Shown piece by piece: positions 2,423 through 63,700 of a stretch of 64,000 bases of DNA (position 1 is the first letter of the stretch; each line of letters opens with the position of its first letter). The position numbers and the translations under genes are program-made. The notes below the pieces were generated by a model, which was not told the origin of the DNA, ran no database searches, and saw only the letters and a list, made by a program, of their open reading frames with translations. This DNA is from Aminivibrio sp. (lineage in GTDB: Bacteria; Synergistota; Synergistia; Synergistales; Aminobacteriaceae). The DNA lies in contig NZ_JAESIH010000051.1 in assembly GCF_016756745.1 (NCBI RefSeq), forward strand, positions 1 to 64,000, read 5' to 3'.

Positions 2423-2812
2423 ATGGCAAGCATAGAGAGATTTGAGGACATCGAAGCCTGGCAAAAGGCTCGCGAACTGACGCAGGAGATTTACCGGATC
2501 ACAAATCAAGGCTCTTTTGCAAGGGACTTCGGTGTTCGCGATCAGATACGGCGGGCCGCTGTTTCGGTAATGTCCAATATCGCCGAAGGCTTTGGCAGAG
2601 GCGGAAACAAGGAGTTTATTCAATTCCTTTCAACCGCCAAGGGTTCAGCGTCAGAGGTTCAGGCTCAGCTTTATGTAGCCTTGGACGCGGGGCACATAAC
2701 GAAAGAACAATTTCGACAGCTATATGATCTGGCGCAGTCATCGGGAAAACTGACAGGTGGTTTCATCCGCTATTTGCAGAAGTCGGACCATAAAGGAGTG
2801 AAGTTCTCATGA
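2423..2812 (+). CDS. Four-helix-bundle protein (S23/IVP family)
   Basis: A 129-residue protein of the four-helix-bundle family first known from intervening sequences of 23S rRNA genes (S23 ribosomal / IVP-like). The N-terminal FEDIEAWQKARELT, the central RRAAVSVMSNIAEGFGRG and the C-terminal GGFIRYL are the family's conserved blocks, and the length is typical. Biochemical role unknown. Here it is not inside rRNA but inserted between the AlbA-type gene and a methyltransferase, enclosed by inverted repeats at 2379-2415 and 2832-2868. Its TGA overlaps the ATG of the next frame (ATGA), so the downstream frame may be translationally coupled. Confidence 0.85.
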   Translation: MASIERFEDIEAWQKARELTQEIYRITNQGSFARDFGVRDQIRRAAVSVMSNIAEGFGRGGNKEFIQFLSTAKGSASEVQAQLYVALDAGHITKEQFRQLYDLAQSSGKLTGGFIRYLQKSDHKGVKFS

Positions 2813-3598
2813 GCCGGAAAGAATTACCCGGCTTCAACCAGGAACCAGAAACCAGGCACCAGAAACCCGTCGAATGTCTCGGCATGACGTTCCCGAACGA
2901 CGAGGAGAGGCGGAAGCATTTTCTCGGTATCCTGCGCGAGAAGCTGAAGGACCCCGAGTTCCGCAAGATCGAGGGGTTCCCGCACGGCAGCGACAAGGAC
3001 ATCCTGGCGCTCTCCGCCCCGCCGTACTACACGGCCTGCCCGAACCCGTTCATTGCCGATTTCATCAAGCATTACGGCAAACCCTACGACCCGGCAACCG
3101 ATAATTATCGCCGCGAGCCATTCGCAAGTGACACGGGTGCGGGAAAGACCCATCCCATCTACACGGCGCATTCGTACCATTCCAAGATCCCCCATCTGGC
3201 CACCATGCCATGTATCCTGCACTACACCGAGCCGGGCGATATTGTATTCGACGGGTTCTCCGGTTCGGGCATGACGGGCGTGGCGGCGCAGCTTTGCGGC
3301 CAACCGGAAGCAGAGTTCAAGGCAACTCTTGAGGCGGAATGGAAAAAACGGGTTATGCACCACCCAAGTGGGGATCACGGCGGCCTATCCTCATCGACCT
3401 TTCACCTGTTGCCAATTTCATTGCCTATAACCTCAATCTGGATGTTTCAGCCCGCGAGTTCAAGAAAGCTGCTGATCATTTCTTCAAGAAGATCGAGTCG
3501 AAACTCGGCTGGTTGTACGAGACCCTGCACACAGACGGCGAGCGTAAGGGCCGTATCAACTATGTGGTCTGGTCCGAAGTCTTCACCTGCCCTAACTG
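2809..3598 (+). pseudogene. DNA methyltransferase (BREX PglX-like), broken
   Basis: N-terminal remnant of a large N4/N6 DNA methyltransferase. The first ~20 residues are read from the right inverted-repeat arm; family-like sequence begins at PVECLGMTF. The catalytic motif, normally DPPYY, reads APPYY (codon GCC instead of GAC). The AdoMet-binding motif FDGFSGSGMTG follows. One base is missing in the A6 run at 3343-3348, after which the protein continues in another frame (LIDLSPVANFIAYNLN to FTCPNCA). Homology stops at about 3598, where a MITE copy takes over. Family members are several times longer, so most of the gene is lost. With frameshift, motif change and truncation it is very unlikely to work. 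Confidence 0.7.
2832..2868 (-). repeat. Right arm of 37-bp inverted repeat flanking the IVP gene
   Basis: Inverted counterpart of 2379-2415. It lies inside the start of the methyltransferase frame and encodes its odd N-terminal extension, so it was probably placed there together with the IVP gene. Confidence 0.7.
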
Positions 3599-3647
3599 CG
3601 CCCAAGCGGTCCCCGGTGACGCCCCCTGCTGGGGTGCGGATTTAGGG
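3591..3647 (+). mobile_element. MITE copy 1 (short, eroded left end)
   Basis: Right-half sequence of the family, from CCCAAGCGGTCCCCGGTGAC to the right terminus GCGGATTTAGG. The left boundary is unclear: CCTAACTGCGC at 3591 resembles the left terminus at 9 of 11 positions, but it also encodes the methyltransferase's CPNC motif. It marks the point where the methyltransferase homology ends. No target duplication is visible. Confidence 0.65.
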
Positions 3648-11014: not shown

Positions 11015-11177
11015 CCTCAATCCGCAGGCTTTTCAGGCACGGATGTCGGTTCCACAGGCAGACAGCCGGCGAACGCAGGGAGCCGCGGGACTCGCCAGGG
11101 CAGTTGTCACGGACGACAATCCGCGCCTCCCGCCCAATTGGTCCCGGTGACACTCCCCGCCGGGGTGCGGATTTAGG
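11015..11177 (+). mobile_element. MITE copy 2, with 5-bp target duplication GGCAT
   Basis: A 163-bp copy. The left end CCTCAATCCGC (one mismatch) and the right end GCGGATTTAGG are bordered directly by GGCAT at 11010-11014 and 11178-11182. The left part is shortened: the TTTTCAGGCA block is joined directly to the GGATGTCGG block. It separates the coiled-coil gene's terminator from the next promoter. Confidence 0.85.
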
Positions 11178-14582: not shown

Positions 14583-14847
14583 CCTAAATCCGCACCCCGG
14601 CGGGGAGCGTCACCGGGACCAATTGGGGCGGGGGGCGGATTGTCGTCAGTGACAACTGCCCGGACGAGTCCCGCGGCTCCCTGCCTGAGAAACCGATATC
14701 CGTACCGGTTTCTCTCCCCTCAGGCGCCTTCCCCCCAGGAGATCTCTCAGCAAAGAGCGCGGAGCGAAATCTCTTCGCCCCCGGGGAGGGCGAATTGGTC
14801 CTATGCCCGGCGACATTCCCTCTGCCTGAAAAATTTGCTGATTTAGG
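14583..14847 (-). mobile_element. MITE copy 3 (near full length, inverted)
   Basis: A 265-bp copy in reverse orientation, from CCTAAATCCGC to GCTGATTTAGG (one terminal mismatch). It contains both halves and the internal hairpin in a variant form, AAACCGGTA-CGGA-TATCGGTTT on the minus strand. No target duplication is recognisable, suggesting an older insertion. It fills most of the iorB-MFS gap. Confidence 0.85.
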
Positions 14848-20403: not shown

Positions 20404-21552
20404 ATGAAAAAGATCGCTTCAAATCTTGCAGCTTCAGCAGCCCTCCTCTTTCTTCTTGCATGGGGAGTCGCTGCAGGGACGGATTTGTTTGTCCTCTCGC
20501 GCTGGAATGCAAAGGATTCTTCGGTGGTGGTCATCGAAGACCTGCTCGGAAGAAGGATTGATCCTGAATCCGGTGAAGGTGGCGAGTGGGAAAGCGAGTT
20601 TGTAAAACTCCGGATCATGTACAGGAGCGGTCCAGAGGCTGGCACGCGGGAAGAGGTAGAGATCATGCAGCTTTCCGACAGCAGGCTCTCCCTCCTGCCC
20701 GGAAAGGAGTATCTTCTTCTGGCAGACGCTTTCGACGATGGAACGGTTCAGTATTCCATCAGCGACCGCTACCGGGTTCCTGCCGTGGTAGGCTTTATCA
20801 CCTTCGCTTGCGGCATTCTCGTCATTGTCGCGGGGAGACCGGGGTTCAAGGCCCTCGTGGGACTCTTTCTCTCGCTCCTCTTTCTCATCGGCTGGTTTGT
20901 CCCCCGGTTAGCTTCGGGCTATCCTCCAGTTCCCTTCGCCGTTCTGGCGGTTGCTGCCGTTTCGGTGGTGACTTCCTTTTTCGTCGTCAGGAAACGGGAG
21001 CTGCGTCCTATTCCGATTTTCGGTGCGGTGGGCGGAGCCGCCGGAGCTTCGGTCACGGGATGGTTTATGGTATCCCTTTGGCAGCTTACGGGGCTGGAAA
21101 GCGACAGCGCCGCCCTTCTCGCATCCACGGCCCCGGACCTTTCCCTGAGAGGGCTGCTCCTTGCGGCCGTCATGGTGGGTTCCATAGGGGCCGTGCTGGA
21201 CGTCGCTGTTTCCGTTACATCTTCCATGGGCGAACTGTACGAGTATGATCCGTCCATTCCAAGAAAAAGGCTGTGGAAAGCAGGGATAAGCGTCGGAAGC
21301 GATGTGCTGGGCAGCATGATCAATACGCTCATCCTGGCCTACCTTGGAAGCTCTTTGCCGTTCGTGGTGCTCATCGCCACCGAGGGAGCCGATTTCATCG
21401 GGCTCCTCAACGACCCCCACATAGCTCAGGAAGTTCTGAGGAGTGTGGCGGGGACGGTGGGGCTGCTTCTGACCATACCGGCAACAGCTGCGGCCGGGGT
21501 GTGGTGGATTTCCGGCCGCTGGAAAGAGCCTGAGGATTCGGGGGGTGCCTAA
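20404..21552 (+). CDS. YibE/F family membrane protein
   Basis: A 382-residue integral membrane protein of the YibE/F family (function unknown). It has an N-terminal signal or anchor helix, an extracytoplasmic domain to about residue 120, then seven or eight helices with the family segments LDVAVSVTSSMGELYEYDP and GSDVLGSMINTLILAYLGSS. The last codon and TAA stop are read from the left terminus of MITE copy 4 (CCTAAATC at 21548), so the C-terminus was set by the insertion; few residues seem lost. Probably monocistronic. Confidence 0.88.
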   Translation: MKKIASNLAASAALLFLLAWGVAAGTDLFVLSRWNAKDSSVVVIEDLLGRRIDPESGEGGEWESEFVKLRIMYRSGPEAGTREEVEIMQLSDSRLSLLPGKEYLLLADAFDDGTVQYSISDRYRVPAVVGFITFACGILVIVAGRPGFKALVGLFLSLLFLIGWFVPRLASGYPPVPFAVLAVAAVSVVTSFFVVRKRELRPIPIFGAVGGAAGASVTGWFMVSLWQLTGLESDSAALLASTAPDLSLRGLLLAAVMVGSIGAVLDVAVSVTSSMGELYEYDPSIPRKRLWKAGISVGSDVLGSMINTLILAYLGSSLPFVVLIATEGADFIGLLNDPHIAQEVLRSVAGTVGLLLTIPATAAAGVWWISGRWKEPEDSGGA

Positions 21553-21825
21553 ATCCGCTAATTTTTCAGGCAGAGGGAGTGTCGCCGGGCATACGGCGAA
21601 TTTGCCCCCAAGGGTGAAGAGATCCCGCTCCGCGCTCTTTGCGGATGAATCCCCCGGGGGAGGGCGCCTGAGGGGAGAGACAGCGGCACGGATGTCGGTT
21701 TTACAGGCAGGCAGCCGGCGAACGCAGGGAGCTGCGGGACTCGCCTGGGCGGTTGTCACGGACGACAAACTGCCCCCCGCCCAAGGGGTCCCCGGTGACG
21801 CTCCCCGCTGGGGTGCGGATTTAGG
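21548..21825 (+). mobile_element. MITE copy 4 (full length)
   Basis: A 278-bp copy with intact CCTAAATCCGC and GCGGATTTAGG ends and all internal blocks. Its left terminus supplies the stop codon of the YibE/F gene. The flanks share only a partial GGTG, so the target duplication is not clear. Confidence 0.9.
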
Positions 21826-36589: not shown

Positions 36590-36619
36590 GAAAGGGTTCC
36601 GTCAATTCCTCTCTTATTC

Positions 36620-36875
36620 CCTAAATCCGCAGATTTTTCAGGCAGAGGGAGTGTCGCCGGGCATAAGGTGAATTCGCCCTCCCCAGGGGCGAAGAGATTA
36701 TCCCCTGGGGAGGGCGCCCGGGGGAGAGAAACCGACACGGATGTCGGTTTCACAGGCAGGCAACCGGCGAACGCAGGGAGCCGAGATGATCGCCTGGGCA
36801 GTTGTCAAGGACGACAATCTGCACCCCCCGCCCAAGCGTTCCCCGGTGACACTCCCCGCTGCCTGCGGATTTAGG
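36620..36875 (+). mobile_element. MITE copy 5, with target duplication TATTC
   Basis: A 256-bp copy with intact termini, bordered by TATTC at 36615-36619 and 36876-36880. It carries a perfect internal hairpin, AAACCGACA-CGGA-TGTCGGTTT (36729-36750). On the minus strand it is read as the last ~59 codons of the radical SAM gene. Confidence 0.95.
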
Positions 36876-37864
36876 TATTCCTCTGTTATTCTTCTCGTAT
36901 CCGGGTGTTCCGGTTTTTCACCGCTCTCCGCACAGAAGACGACCCTGCGGGCCGTTTCTTCCTGCGAGAGGCCCGTCATGCCGGCAAGGAGGCGCAGTCC
37001 GTACTGTCCGTGACCGGTCAGAAGCGACCTGGCCCTTCCGGGAACGCGCCACTGCTTCGGTAAAGACCCGGCGGCAAGGGTCAGGGCCAGTTCGGCGGCC
37101 CGGGCGAGTTCTCCGAAGGCGGGATGGTGGGGGCCGGTTACAACGGACCGGCTGAGGGTTGCCGATTCCTGAAGTCCCACCCGCTGGACAGGAATGCCCA
37201 GATCCCGGGCGAGAACCAGGAGCCTGCCGGACCAGAGTGCTGCTGCATCAAGGTGCAGGGGGACATAGTCTCCCCGGCGGTAGAGCTCTTCCAGCGGGGT
37301 GTCCCGGAGAACGAGACACGGATAAATCCGGAGGGTCAAAGGCCTGCCCTTCCGGGCTGCATCCAGCCTGAGAAGGTCTTCGAAGGAGCTCCGTTCCGAC
37401 TGCCCCGGAAGGCCGATCATCATCTGGGCTCCCGCATGGAACCCTGCATCCAGCACCCTTTCAACGGCGGACAGGACCTCCGTTCCGGAATAGCCCCGGT
37501 TGCACAATGTAAGCACATGGTCATCCAGGGAAGAAATCCCCAGTTCGATCATGGACACGGGGTAGCGGGCCAGCAGCGCAAGAACTGCGGAAGAAAGGCA
37601 TTCAGGGTGGGTGGAGAGCCTGACGGTGCTTCCCCGGGGAGCTTTCAACGCCCCCTCGAGGTATGCCTTCTGCCGGTCGTGAGGAATACAGGTAAAGCTG
37701 CCGCCGAAGAAGCAGATTTCCACCGGTTCCGTCGCTGATGCCGCAGCCGCTTCCACGTGTTCCGGGGATGGAATGTTGAAGGTCCCTGTAATCTCCCCCT
37801 GGTGGCAGTAGACGCATCGCCGGGGGCAGCTCTGCATGGAAAGGAAAAAGGGAAGGCGCTTCAT
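36698..37864 (-). CDS. Radical SAM protein with MITE-encoded C-terminal tail
   Basis: A 388-residue protein. The radical-SAM cluster motif CPRRCVYC (Cys13, 17, 20) is followed by EICFFGGSFTCIP, HPECLSSAVLALL and an ELGISSLDDHVL segment, resembling the Elp3-like core of tRNA-modifying or oxygen-independent radical SAM proteins. Codons after about residue 329 (EEYLNPQAAG onward) lie inside MITE copy 5, so about 59 residues are element-derived. The native protein probably ended near here; activity may be kept. It is 10 bases behind the ImmA-like gene and likely co-transcribed. Substrate unknown. Confidence 0.82.
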   Translation of the reverse strand: MKRLPFFLSMQSCPRRCVYCHQGEITGTFNIPSPEHVEAAAASATEPVEICFFGGSFTCIPHDRQKAYLEGALKAPRGSTVRLSTHPECLSSAVLALLARYPVSMIELGISSLDDHVLTLCNRGYSGTEVLSAVERVLDAGFHAGAQMMIGLPGQSERSSFEDLLRLDAARKGRPLTLRIYPCLVLRDTPLEELYRRGDYVPLHLDAAALWSGRLLVLARDLGIPVQRVGLQESATLSRSVVTGPHHPAFGELARAAELALTLAAGSLPKQWRVPGRARSLLTGHGQYGLRLLAGMTGLSQEETARRVVFCAESGEKPEHPDTRRITEEYLNPQAAGSVTGERLGGGCRLSSLTTAQAIISAPCVRRLPACETDIRVGFSPPGALPRG

Positions 37865-42839: not shown

Positions 42840-42904
42840 CCTAAATCCGCACCCCGGCGGGGAGCGTCACGGGGACCGCTTGGGCCGGGGGTGCGGATTT
42901 AGGG
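42840..42904 (-). mobile_element. MITE copy 7 (65 bp), with target duplication TTGAC
   Basis: Both termini are intact around a right-half-only core (inverted). TTGAC borders it at 42835-42839 and 42905-42909, with one extra G at the right end. It sits 31 bases upstream of the ylxM-ffh promoter. Confidence 0.9.
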
Positions 42905-47655: not shown

Positions 47656-48175
47656 TCTTTTCACTGTTGTTTTTCCTCCCTCCTTCCACAGGTTGCCTAG
47701 AAAATCTCCTTCTGACCCAATGCAACGAGTTGATCGGCGGGATTCTTACCTCCCTCCTGCCTTTGGGGAGACGTTTATGAATCCGGGACGGGAAAATCAG
47801 CTTGCAATAAGAGCTTCAATCGGGTAAACAACAGGAAGGCTGAGCGAAACCGCGCATTGGAAGCCGCTTTGATTGCATCGTATGAATATTTGACATTCAC
47901 AGGGAGGAGGGGGGATATTGGAGTTAAGCGCCGCATGCTGAGCGCGGCGCGGATGGACCTCCCTTTCATTACGACAAATCAGCCTTCCTTGGGGTAAGAA
48001 CGGGTACGAGAAGGTGGGTTTTCGACATGGGGGTAATGTCCGGATAAAAGGGCTGCCCCCCTTTGCGGGAGCTACATCGAAAACAACCCGTGGAATGATG
48101 TCTTCTCCGGGACTGGCCCGGAAATCGTTTTTTTAGTACACTTATAAAAATTCCGGTTTACCAAGGGGTGGGGCA
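47656..48175 (+). other. Non-coding gap with gene relics and repeat B copy 1
   Basis: No intact gene. Bases 47830-47990 contain an open stretch without a start codon (RKAERNRALEAALIASYEYL) that looks like a decayed gene of unknown kind. Bases 47997-48100 form the first copy of a ~105-bp repeat whose second copy is at 54823-54930. An inverted CGCCGC/GCGGCG lies near 47927. The promoter of the TPR gene probably sits near 48130-48150. Confidence 0.55.
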
Positions 48176-50433: not shown

Positions 50434-50539
50434 CCTAAATCCGCAGCTTTTCCAGGCGGAGGGGGTGTCGCCGGGGATGATGTGAATTCGCCCGGCCTGG
50501 GGTGAAGAAATCACGCTCTTCGCTGCCTGCGAATGTAGG
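50434..50539 (+). mobile_element. MITE copy 8 (106 bp)
   Basis: Left-half block with CCTAAATCCGC at the left and a diverged GCGAATGTAGG at the right. Flanked by ATTCC (50429-50433) and TTTCC (50540-50544), a target duplication with one mismatch. Directly followed by copy 9. Confidence 0.88.
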
Positions 50540-50544
50540 TTTCC

Positions 50545-50709
50545 CCTAAATCCGCAGGTTTTTCAGGCAGAGGGAGTGTCGCCGGGCACAGTGCCCGGGC
50601 CGAGAAACCGACACGGATGTCGGTTTCAGGTGCAGTTGTCAAGGACGACAATCTGCACCCCCCGCCCAAGCGAGCACCGGTGACGCTCCCGCTGAGGTGC
50701 GGATTTAGG
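50545..50709 (+). mobile_element. MITE copy 9 (165 bp), with target duplication TTTCC
   Basis: Intact termini with both halves shortened, and the perfect AAACCGACA-CGGA-TGTCGGTTT hairpin. Bordered by TTTCC at 50540-50544 and 50710-50714. Copies 8 and 9 share the middle TTTCC, as expected if one inserted beside the other. Confidence 0.93.
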
Positions 50710-54756: not shown

Positions 54757-54935
54757 TTGACCGACGCGGAAAGTACGGAGGGGGAGGTTACAGTCGATAG
54801 GGACGCCACGATCATTCCTGTGGATAAGAACGGGTACGAGAAGATGGTTTTTTTCGACGTCGGAGGTAATGTCCGGAGAAAAAGGGCTGACCCCCCTCGC
54901 GGGAATTCATCGAAAACAACCTGTGGAATGAGGAA
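54757..54935 (+). repeat. Repeat B copy 2 inside a short frame of unknown origin
   Basis: Bases 54823-54930 are a near copy of 47997-48100, sharing AAGAACGGGTACGAGAAG, GGTAATGTCCGG and ATCGAAAACAACC. Here it lies in a 65-codon frame (VDKNGYEKMVFFDVGGNVRR) that does not align in frame with the other copy throughout. Likely relics of one dispersed sequence, not a gene. Confidence 0.7.
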
Positions 54936-63416: not shown

Positions 63417-63700
63417 CCTAAATCCGCTAATCTTTCAGGCAGAGGGAGTGTCGCCGGGCATACGGTGAATTCGCCCTCCCCAGGGGCGAAGAGATCTCGC
63501 TCCGCGCTTTTTGCTGATGAATCCCCCGGGGGGAGGGCGCCTGAGGGGAAAAGAAACCGGCACGGACGTCGGTTTCACAGGCAGACAACAGGCGAACTCA
63601 GGGAGCCGCGGGACTCGCCCGGGCAGTTGTCACGAACGACAATCTGCACCCCCTGCCCAAGTAGTCCCCGTGACGCTCCCCGCCGGGGTGCGGATTTAGG
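63417..63700 (+). mobile_element. MITE copy 11 (full length), with target duplication GGACC
   Basis: A 284-bp copy with perfect CCTAAATCCGC/GCGGATTTAGG ends and all internal blocks, bordered exactly by GGACC at 63412-63416 and 63701-63705. The best reference copy in the window. Confidence 0.96.

Follow-up and report, generated by a model that had tools for sequence, protein, structure and literature searches.

The hairpin at positions 36728–36751 of the window (the whole 64,000-nucleotide stretch of DNA that was analysed) is very probably a module of a MITE that an IS1380-family transposase would mobilise in trans and whose hairpins change as DNA units. The element itself is a MITE, a non-autonomous DNA transposon, of the ordinary kind, well documented here and with an interior of interesting modular hairpins. 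At the locus of the finding it is represented by a 256-bp mobile element (36620–36875) with 11-bp inverted ends CCTAAATCCGC and the 5-bp target duplication (TSD) TATTC. The features of this copy and of other copies in the window are as follows:

36615–36619, unstranded: left TSD TATTC
36620–36875, plus strand: MITE, class A copy with the hairpin under study; perfect 11-bp terminal repeats, 5-bp TSD, empty site in two sister species
36620–36630, plus strand: left terminal inverted repeat CCTAAATCCGC
36675–36715, unstranded: hairpin module H1, 15-bp stem (predicted fold and class consensus alignment)
36728–36751, unstranded: hairpin module H2 (the hairpin under study), 10-bp stem, NGGA loop (predicted fold and copy alignment)
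36753–36796, unstranded: module H3, imperfect stem (predicted fold and class consensus alignment)
36798–36822, unstranded: hairpin module H4 (CAGTTGTC/GACAATCTG), stem conserved, loop variable (predicted fold)
36865–36875, minus strand: right terminal inverted repeat
36876–36880, unstranded: right TSD TATTC
11015–11177, plus strand: 163-bp copy, left part lost, TSD GGCAT
14583–14847, minus strand: class C copy, sole carrier of the H2 compensatory change
21548–21825, plus strand: class C copy, H2 with two broken pairs
42840–42903, minus strand: 64-bp end-only remnant
50545–50709, plus strand: class B copy, 165 bp, TSD TTTCC
63417–63700, plus strand: class C copy, 284 bp, TSD GGACC

Two element copies, 50434–50539 and 50545–50709, lie side by side with the 5-bp TTTCC between them. 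A separate pair of 70-bp repeats, 74% identical, is located at 48029–48098 and 54862–54931.

The features found together in this family, namely terminal inverted repeats, a TSD of fixed length, a size of 165–284 bp without a transposase gene, high copy number and an empty site, are those of a MITE. The exact end motif occurs at 282 sites (148 + 134) in the 2.94-Mb genome versus 14 (3 + 11) for the reversed control. DNA searches revealed well above 100 copies of the element in the source genome and dozens in two sister species; the copy set, gathered piecewise from the genome, is large and incomplete. Among genomes of the same genus, two contain dozens of matches and a third contains one marginal match, while no match to the element was detected in 36 other genomes of the family or order. 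The left-end pattern of the MITE has no matches in named genome contigs or in the plasmid collection. The H2 hairpin, with up to two mismatches, was found 116 times in the source genome, 22 and 18 times in the sister genomes and not once in 23 other genomes. The alignment comprises 111 near-complete copies from three genomes, those of the window and of the two sister species; a perfect 5-bp TSD, varied in sequence, flanks 66 of them. At the locus of the finding, an empty site is present in both sister genomes, G001 and G002, and in G001 its left break coincides exactly with the element boundary.

By length, the copies fall into four classes: A, of 254–264 bp, and B, C and D, of about 165, 284 and 213 bp, respectively. 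Compared with shuffled sequences, the complete element gives a much stronger fold on either strand (RNA z −9.8 and −10.0; DNA z −10.8), and the predicted fold is represented by paired ends around H1, H2, H3 and H4. According to the class consensus alignment, class C has an extra hairpin within the H1 loop, class D is without H3, class B is without H1 and H3, and H2 and H4 are common to all four classes. A MITE copy of a sister species (L143, 112–454) contains seven H1 units of 48 bp in tandem, and in another copy (L037, 406–664) the 12-base loop of H1 stands in exactly inverted orientation between two perfect arms. No inversion of the H2 loop was found in the 103 loops read; all four bases occur at its first position in the sister genomes. 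Hairpins that are gained, lost, multiplied and, in one case, loop-inverted as whole units point to DNA-level hairpin dynamics. Template switching is known to yield loop inversions and arm conversions (PMC8794818).

The likely mover of the MITE, judging from the similarity of their ends, is a 1,912-bp insertion sequence of the source genome (IS; C76, L049 372–2283) with the TSD CGGTC, encoding a 533-aa transposase that would act on the MITE in trans. This transposase matches PF13701 with 67.8 bits, above the cut-off, and the IS1380 model NF033539 with an E-value of 3.6e-51 and 174 bits, just below the NCBIfam equivalog cut-off of 180. Both IS ends, which are distinct, match the two MITE ends across about 13–16 bp: the left IS end (CCTAAATCC.CACCCT) is similar to the right end of class A and C MITEs, and the right IS end (..AAATCCGCAGGTT) to the left end of class B and D MITEs. 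Only one intact IS copy was found in the assembly, which weighs against this account; more ends of related IS copies were found at contig ends of the source genome, which suggests collapsed repeats, and similar fragments were found at contig ends of G001. In both G001 and G002, the MITE occurs together with IS-like fragments. The best transposase matches belong to Synergistota MAGs, including a Synergistaceae MAG transposase that is 64% identical and has the same ends. ISEcp1, an IS1380 element, makes 5-bp duplications (PMC2887853). As in the IS1380 family (ISEcp1, ISPme1), the partner transposase matches the IS1380 model, the ends begin with CC and the TSD is 5 bp long; unlike members of this family, the MITE has no transposase, and the partner transposase scores 174 against the cut-off of 180.

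Similar to other prokaryotic MITEs (Correia, Chunjie, QMITE1/2; reviewed in PMC10969869), the element is short, non-coding, intergenic and of high copy number, has terminal inverted repeats and a TSD, and is represented by size classes and truncated copies with a stable predicted fold. It differs from them in its IS1380-type ends, its GC-rich composition, its size classes differing by whole hairpin modules, and the tandem hairpin array in a sister species; IS1380 is not mentioned in the review PMC10969869. QMITE2 of Coxiella likewise has large and small hairpin versions and a very stable fold and is found at gene 3′ ends, but it has TSDs of 7–9 bp and no identified mover and yields an sRNA.

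The perfect 9-bp stem AAACCGACA-CGGA-TGTCGGTTT given in the preliminary description is present at 36729–36750 and 50605–50626, and with the flanking G-C pair the stem is 10 bp long. At 14690–14711 (minus strand), the hairpin reads AAACCGGTA-CGGA-TATCGGTTT, with C-G changed to T-A on both arms and A-T to G-T, as had been described; the copy at 63554–63575 has one pair broken and one G-T, and the neighbouring hairpin CAGTTGTC/GACAATCTG does recur. A copy left out of that description, at 21680–21701 (ACAGCGGCA-CGGA-TGTCGGTTT), has two broken pairs. With up to three mismatches, the quoted hairpin has five matches in the window versus 0 in 100 shuffles.

The further claim, that pairing is kept by compensatory changes, does not hold as a general property. 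The H2 stem is near-invariant across the 111 copies, and a two-sided compensatory change was found in one copy only, at 14583–14847; in class C, this 1 compensatory cell compares with 0.28 by shuffling, and at least one such cell was obtained in 76 of 300 shuffles. Covariation was assessed by a script in the style of R-scape, distinct from R-scape itself (FastTree, Fitch, G-test with APC, 30–60 null alignments). In this tree-aware test, no pair reached E < 0.05 in all copies, in the own genome, or in classes A + C, B or C, and the pair quoted earlier gave E 0.23 in class C, where it was the best H2 pair, and 0.91 in A + C. No covariation above the tree background was thus found, the outcome that the preliminary description had named as refuting its claim. 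With 0–8 substitutions inferred per pair, this negative has little power and is of the low-power kind discussed in PMC7214042; a constraint on pairing is possible in a stem that varies so little. For the whole structure in class C, compensatory cells number 22 versus 12.7 in shuffled data, the observed count being reached in 0 of 300 shuffles. This excess counts against the present account, although shared ancestry alone can produce it. An apparent double change in the copy L036 is a probable misalignment, since H2 there is GGAACCGACA-TGGA-TGTCGGTTTC. The single compensatory change does not demonstrate that selection acts on an RNA, and one compensatory pair can mislead when few copies are compared.

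In class A, the H2 stem has 5 changes where the element mean predicts 21; the corresponding figures are 1 and 11 in class B and 27 and 28 in class C. Windows as quiet as the H2 stem number 11 of 236 in class A and 7 of 142 in class B. The H4 stem hardly changes, and its loop varies. Most of the stem identity is probably due to the descent of same-class copies from recent source copies; the contrast between stem and loop is not predicted by youth alone, so there may be constraint on the source copies, or repair of arms. We infer that the low stem variation reflects youth together with some constraint on source copies.

These observations would be explained as follows. An IS1380-family transposase would recognise the MITE ends, act in trans and leave the 5-bp target duplication, the interior of the mobilised element being a predicted chain of the stem-loops H1–H4 between paired ends. 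Recent source copies, as ancestors, would give rise to the similarity within classes. Deletion of whole hairpins, tandem multiplication and loop inversion would be expected where the replication of palindromes involves slippage or template switching, and the lone compensatory change may have arisen by chance, from two mutations in an old class C copy, or from one template switch between the arms.

The latter possibility can be extended to a general homogenisation of arms, in which template switching copies one arm onto the other and produces paired changes and loop inversions without selection. Such a process is compatible with the MITE reading and competes with it only in explaining how the paired change arose; as such an explanation it is plausible, with a probability short of even. 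The exact H1 loop inversion (L037), the tandem H1 units (L143), the indels of whole hairpins between classes and several copies with paired changes at their ends (CCTGAATCC/GGATTCAGG) are consistent with it, and the mechanism has been described (PMC8794818); nevertheless, the 103 H2 loops contain no inversion, one-sided mismatches persist in class C, and chance explains the single compensatory cell equally well.

It is rather doubtful, though conceivable, that the stems are needed or bound as DNA, in the form of a cruciform or of a putative palindromic site to which the transposase or some host factor would bind, in transposition or regulation, and would therefore be kept in source copies. The presence of H2 and H4 in all four classes, with H1 and H3 dispensable, argues for such a role, as does a conserved stem with a free loop, the first position of which takes any of the four bases in the sister genomes. 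Class C, however, keeps its TSDs although its H2 varies at the mean rate of the element, end-only remnants exist, and the H2 palindrome does not occur in genera that have no MITE. Capture of a host operator was rejected on this last ground and because the sites of the own genome that were compared by eye are located inside elements.

Genes flanking the element were analysed for 59 mapped copies, nearly all of which are intergenic according to a home-made gene caller. Relative to an expectation taken from the intergenic length of the window alone, divergent sites are over-used (24 versus 12.7 expected) and convergent, 3′–3′ sites under-used (3 versus 9.9 expected), the loci with wide flanks not being a random sample. 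This distribution speaks against a terminator or an RNA acting at 3′ ends and is consistent with elements being inserted or tolerated in regions upstream of genes; a terminator role is unlikely, with convergent sites at 3 of 54. No bias in element orientation relative to the flanking genes was detected (17 versus 10, p 0.25).

Several genes of the window extend into copies of the element. The radical-SAM gene 36698–37864 (minus strand) runs into the MITE, and its last approximately 59 codons are element-derived, while the gene of the sister species (342 aa) ends without the element. The stop codon TAA of the YibE/F-like gene 20404–21552 (plus strand) is supplied by the left terminal repeat of the MITE 21548–21825. 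The ORF 2809–3645 (plus strand), which partially matches an N6/N4 DNA methylase, terminates inside a short MITE remnant, its TAG lying within the terminal repeat.

The preliminary description had proposed that the structure acts as RNA or as a folded DNA substrate. What stands is a repeated, strongly folding, multi-hairpin mobile element with some stems conserved beyond the element average; action as RNA found no support. That selection maintains pairing in transcribed stem-loops, which would function as sRNAs, as RNase sites or in stabilising mRNA, is quite unlikely here. The fold is indeed very stable (z −9.8), the H2 stem is conserved in classes A and B, the H4 stem is conserved beside a variable loop, and Coxiella has sRNAs derived from MITEs (PMC5896051). 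Against these points, covariation is not significant, the opposite strand folds equally strongly, class C stems decay at the mean rate of the element, there is no orientation bias relative to genes, and convergent sites are avoided. One-sided stem changes, counted in element orientation, have no RNA-strand bias (124 G-U versus 154 A-C; p 0.08 and opposite to the expectation for an RNA), and neither strand favours G-U over A-C. The Rfam search of the window gave tRNAs only and no family for the element. The DNA reading fits better than the RNA reading because the element is a putative transposase substrate via its ends and because whole hairpins are gained, lost, multiplied and loop-inverted.

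Mobilisation by a Y1 (RAYT) transposase in the form of folded single-stranded DNA, as in REP/REPIN elements, which are likewise extragenic, palindromic and of high copy number, is highly improbable and was rejected, since the element has 5-bp TSDs and terminal inverted repeats and a DDE-type partner, and Y1_Tnp (PF01797) has no match in the genome, with control genomes positive.

For the MITE with its candidate IS1380-type mover, a more far-reaching proposal may be put forward as speculation, improbable as it stands: the H2 and H4 stems would be kept by selection in source copies as folded DNA or RNA needed for spread, and the family would evolve by shuffling hairpin modules, i.e., by loss, insertion, tandem amplification and loop inversion, through template switching. 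Whether selection or DNA template switching keeps the hairpins of MITEs is a question beyond the reach of a few copies inspected by eye. The bacterial MITE family described here is well sampled; it has four structural classes, empty sites in sister species and a plausible IS1380-type mover, and offers a good natural data set for asking this question.
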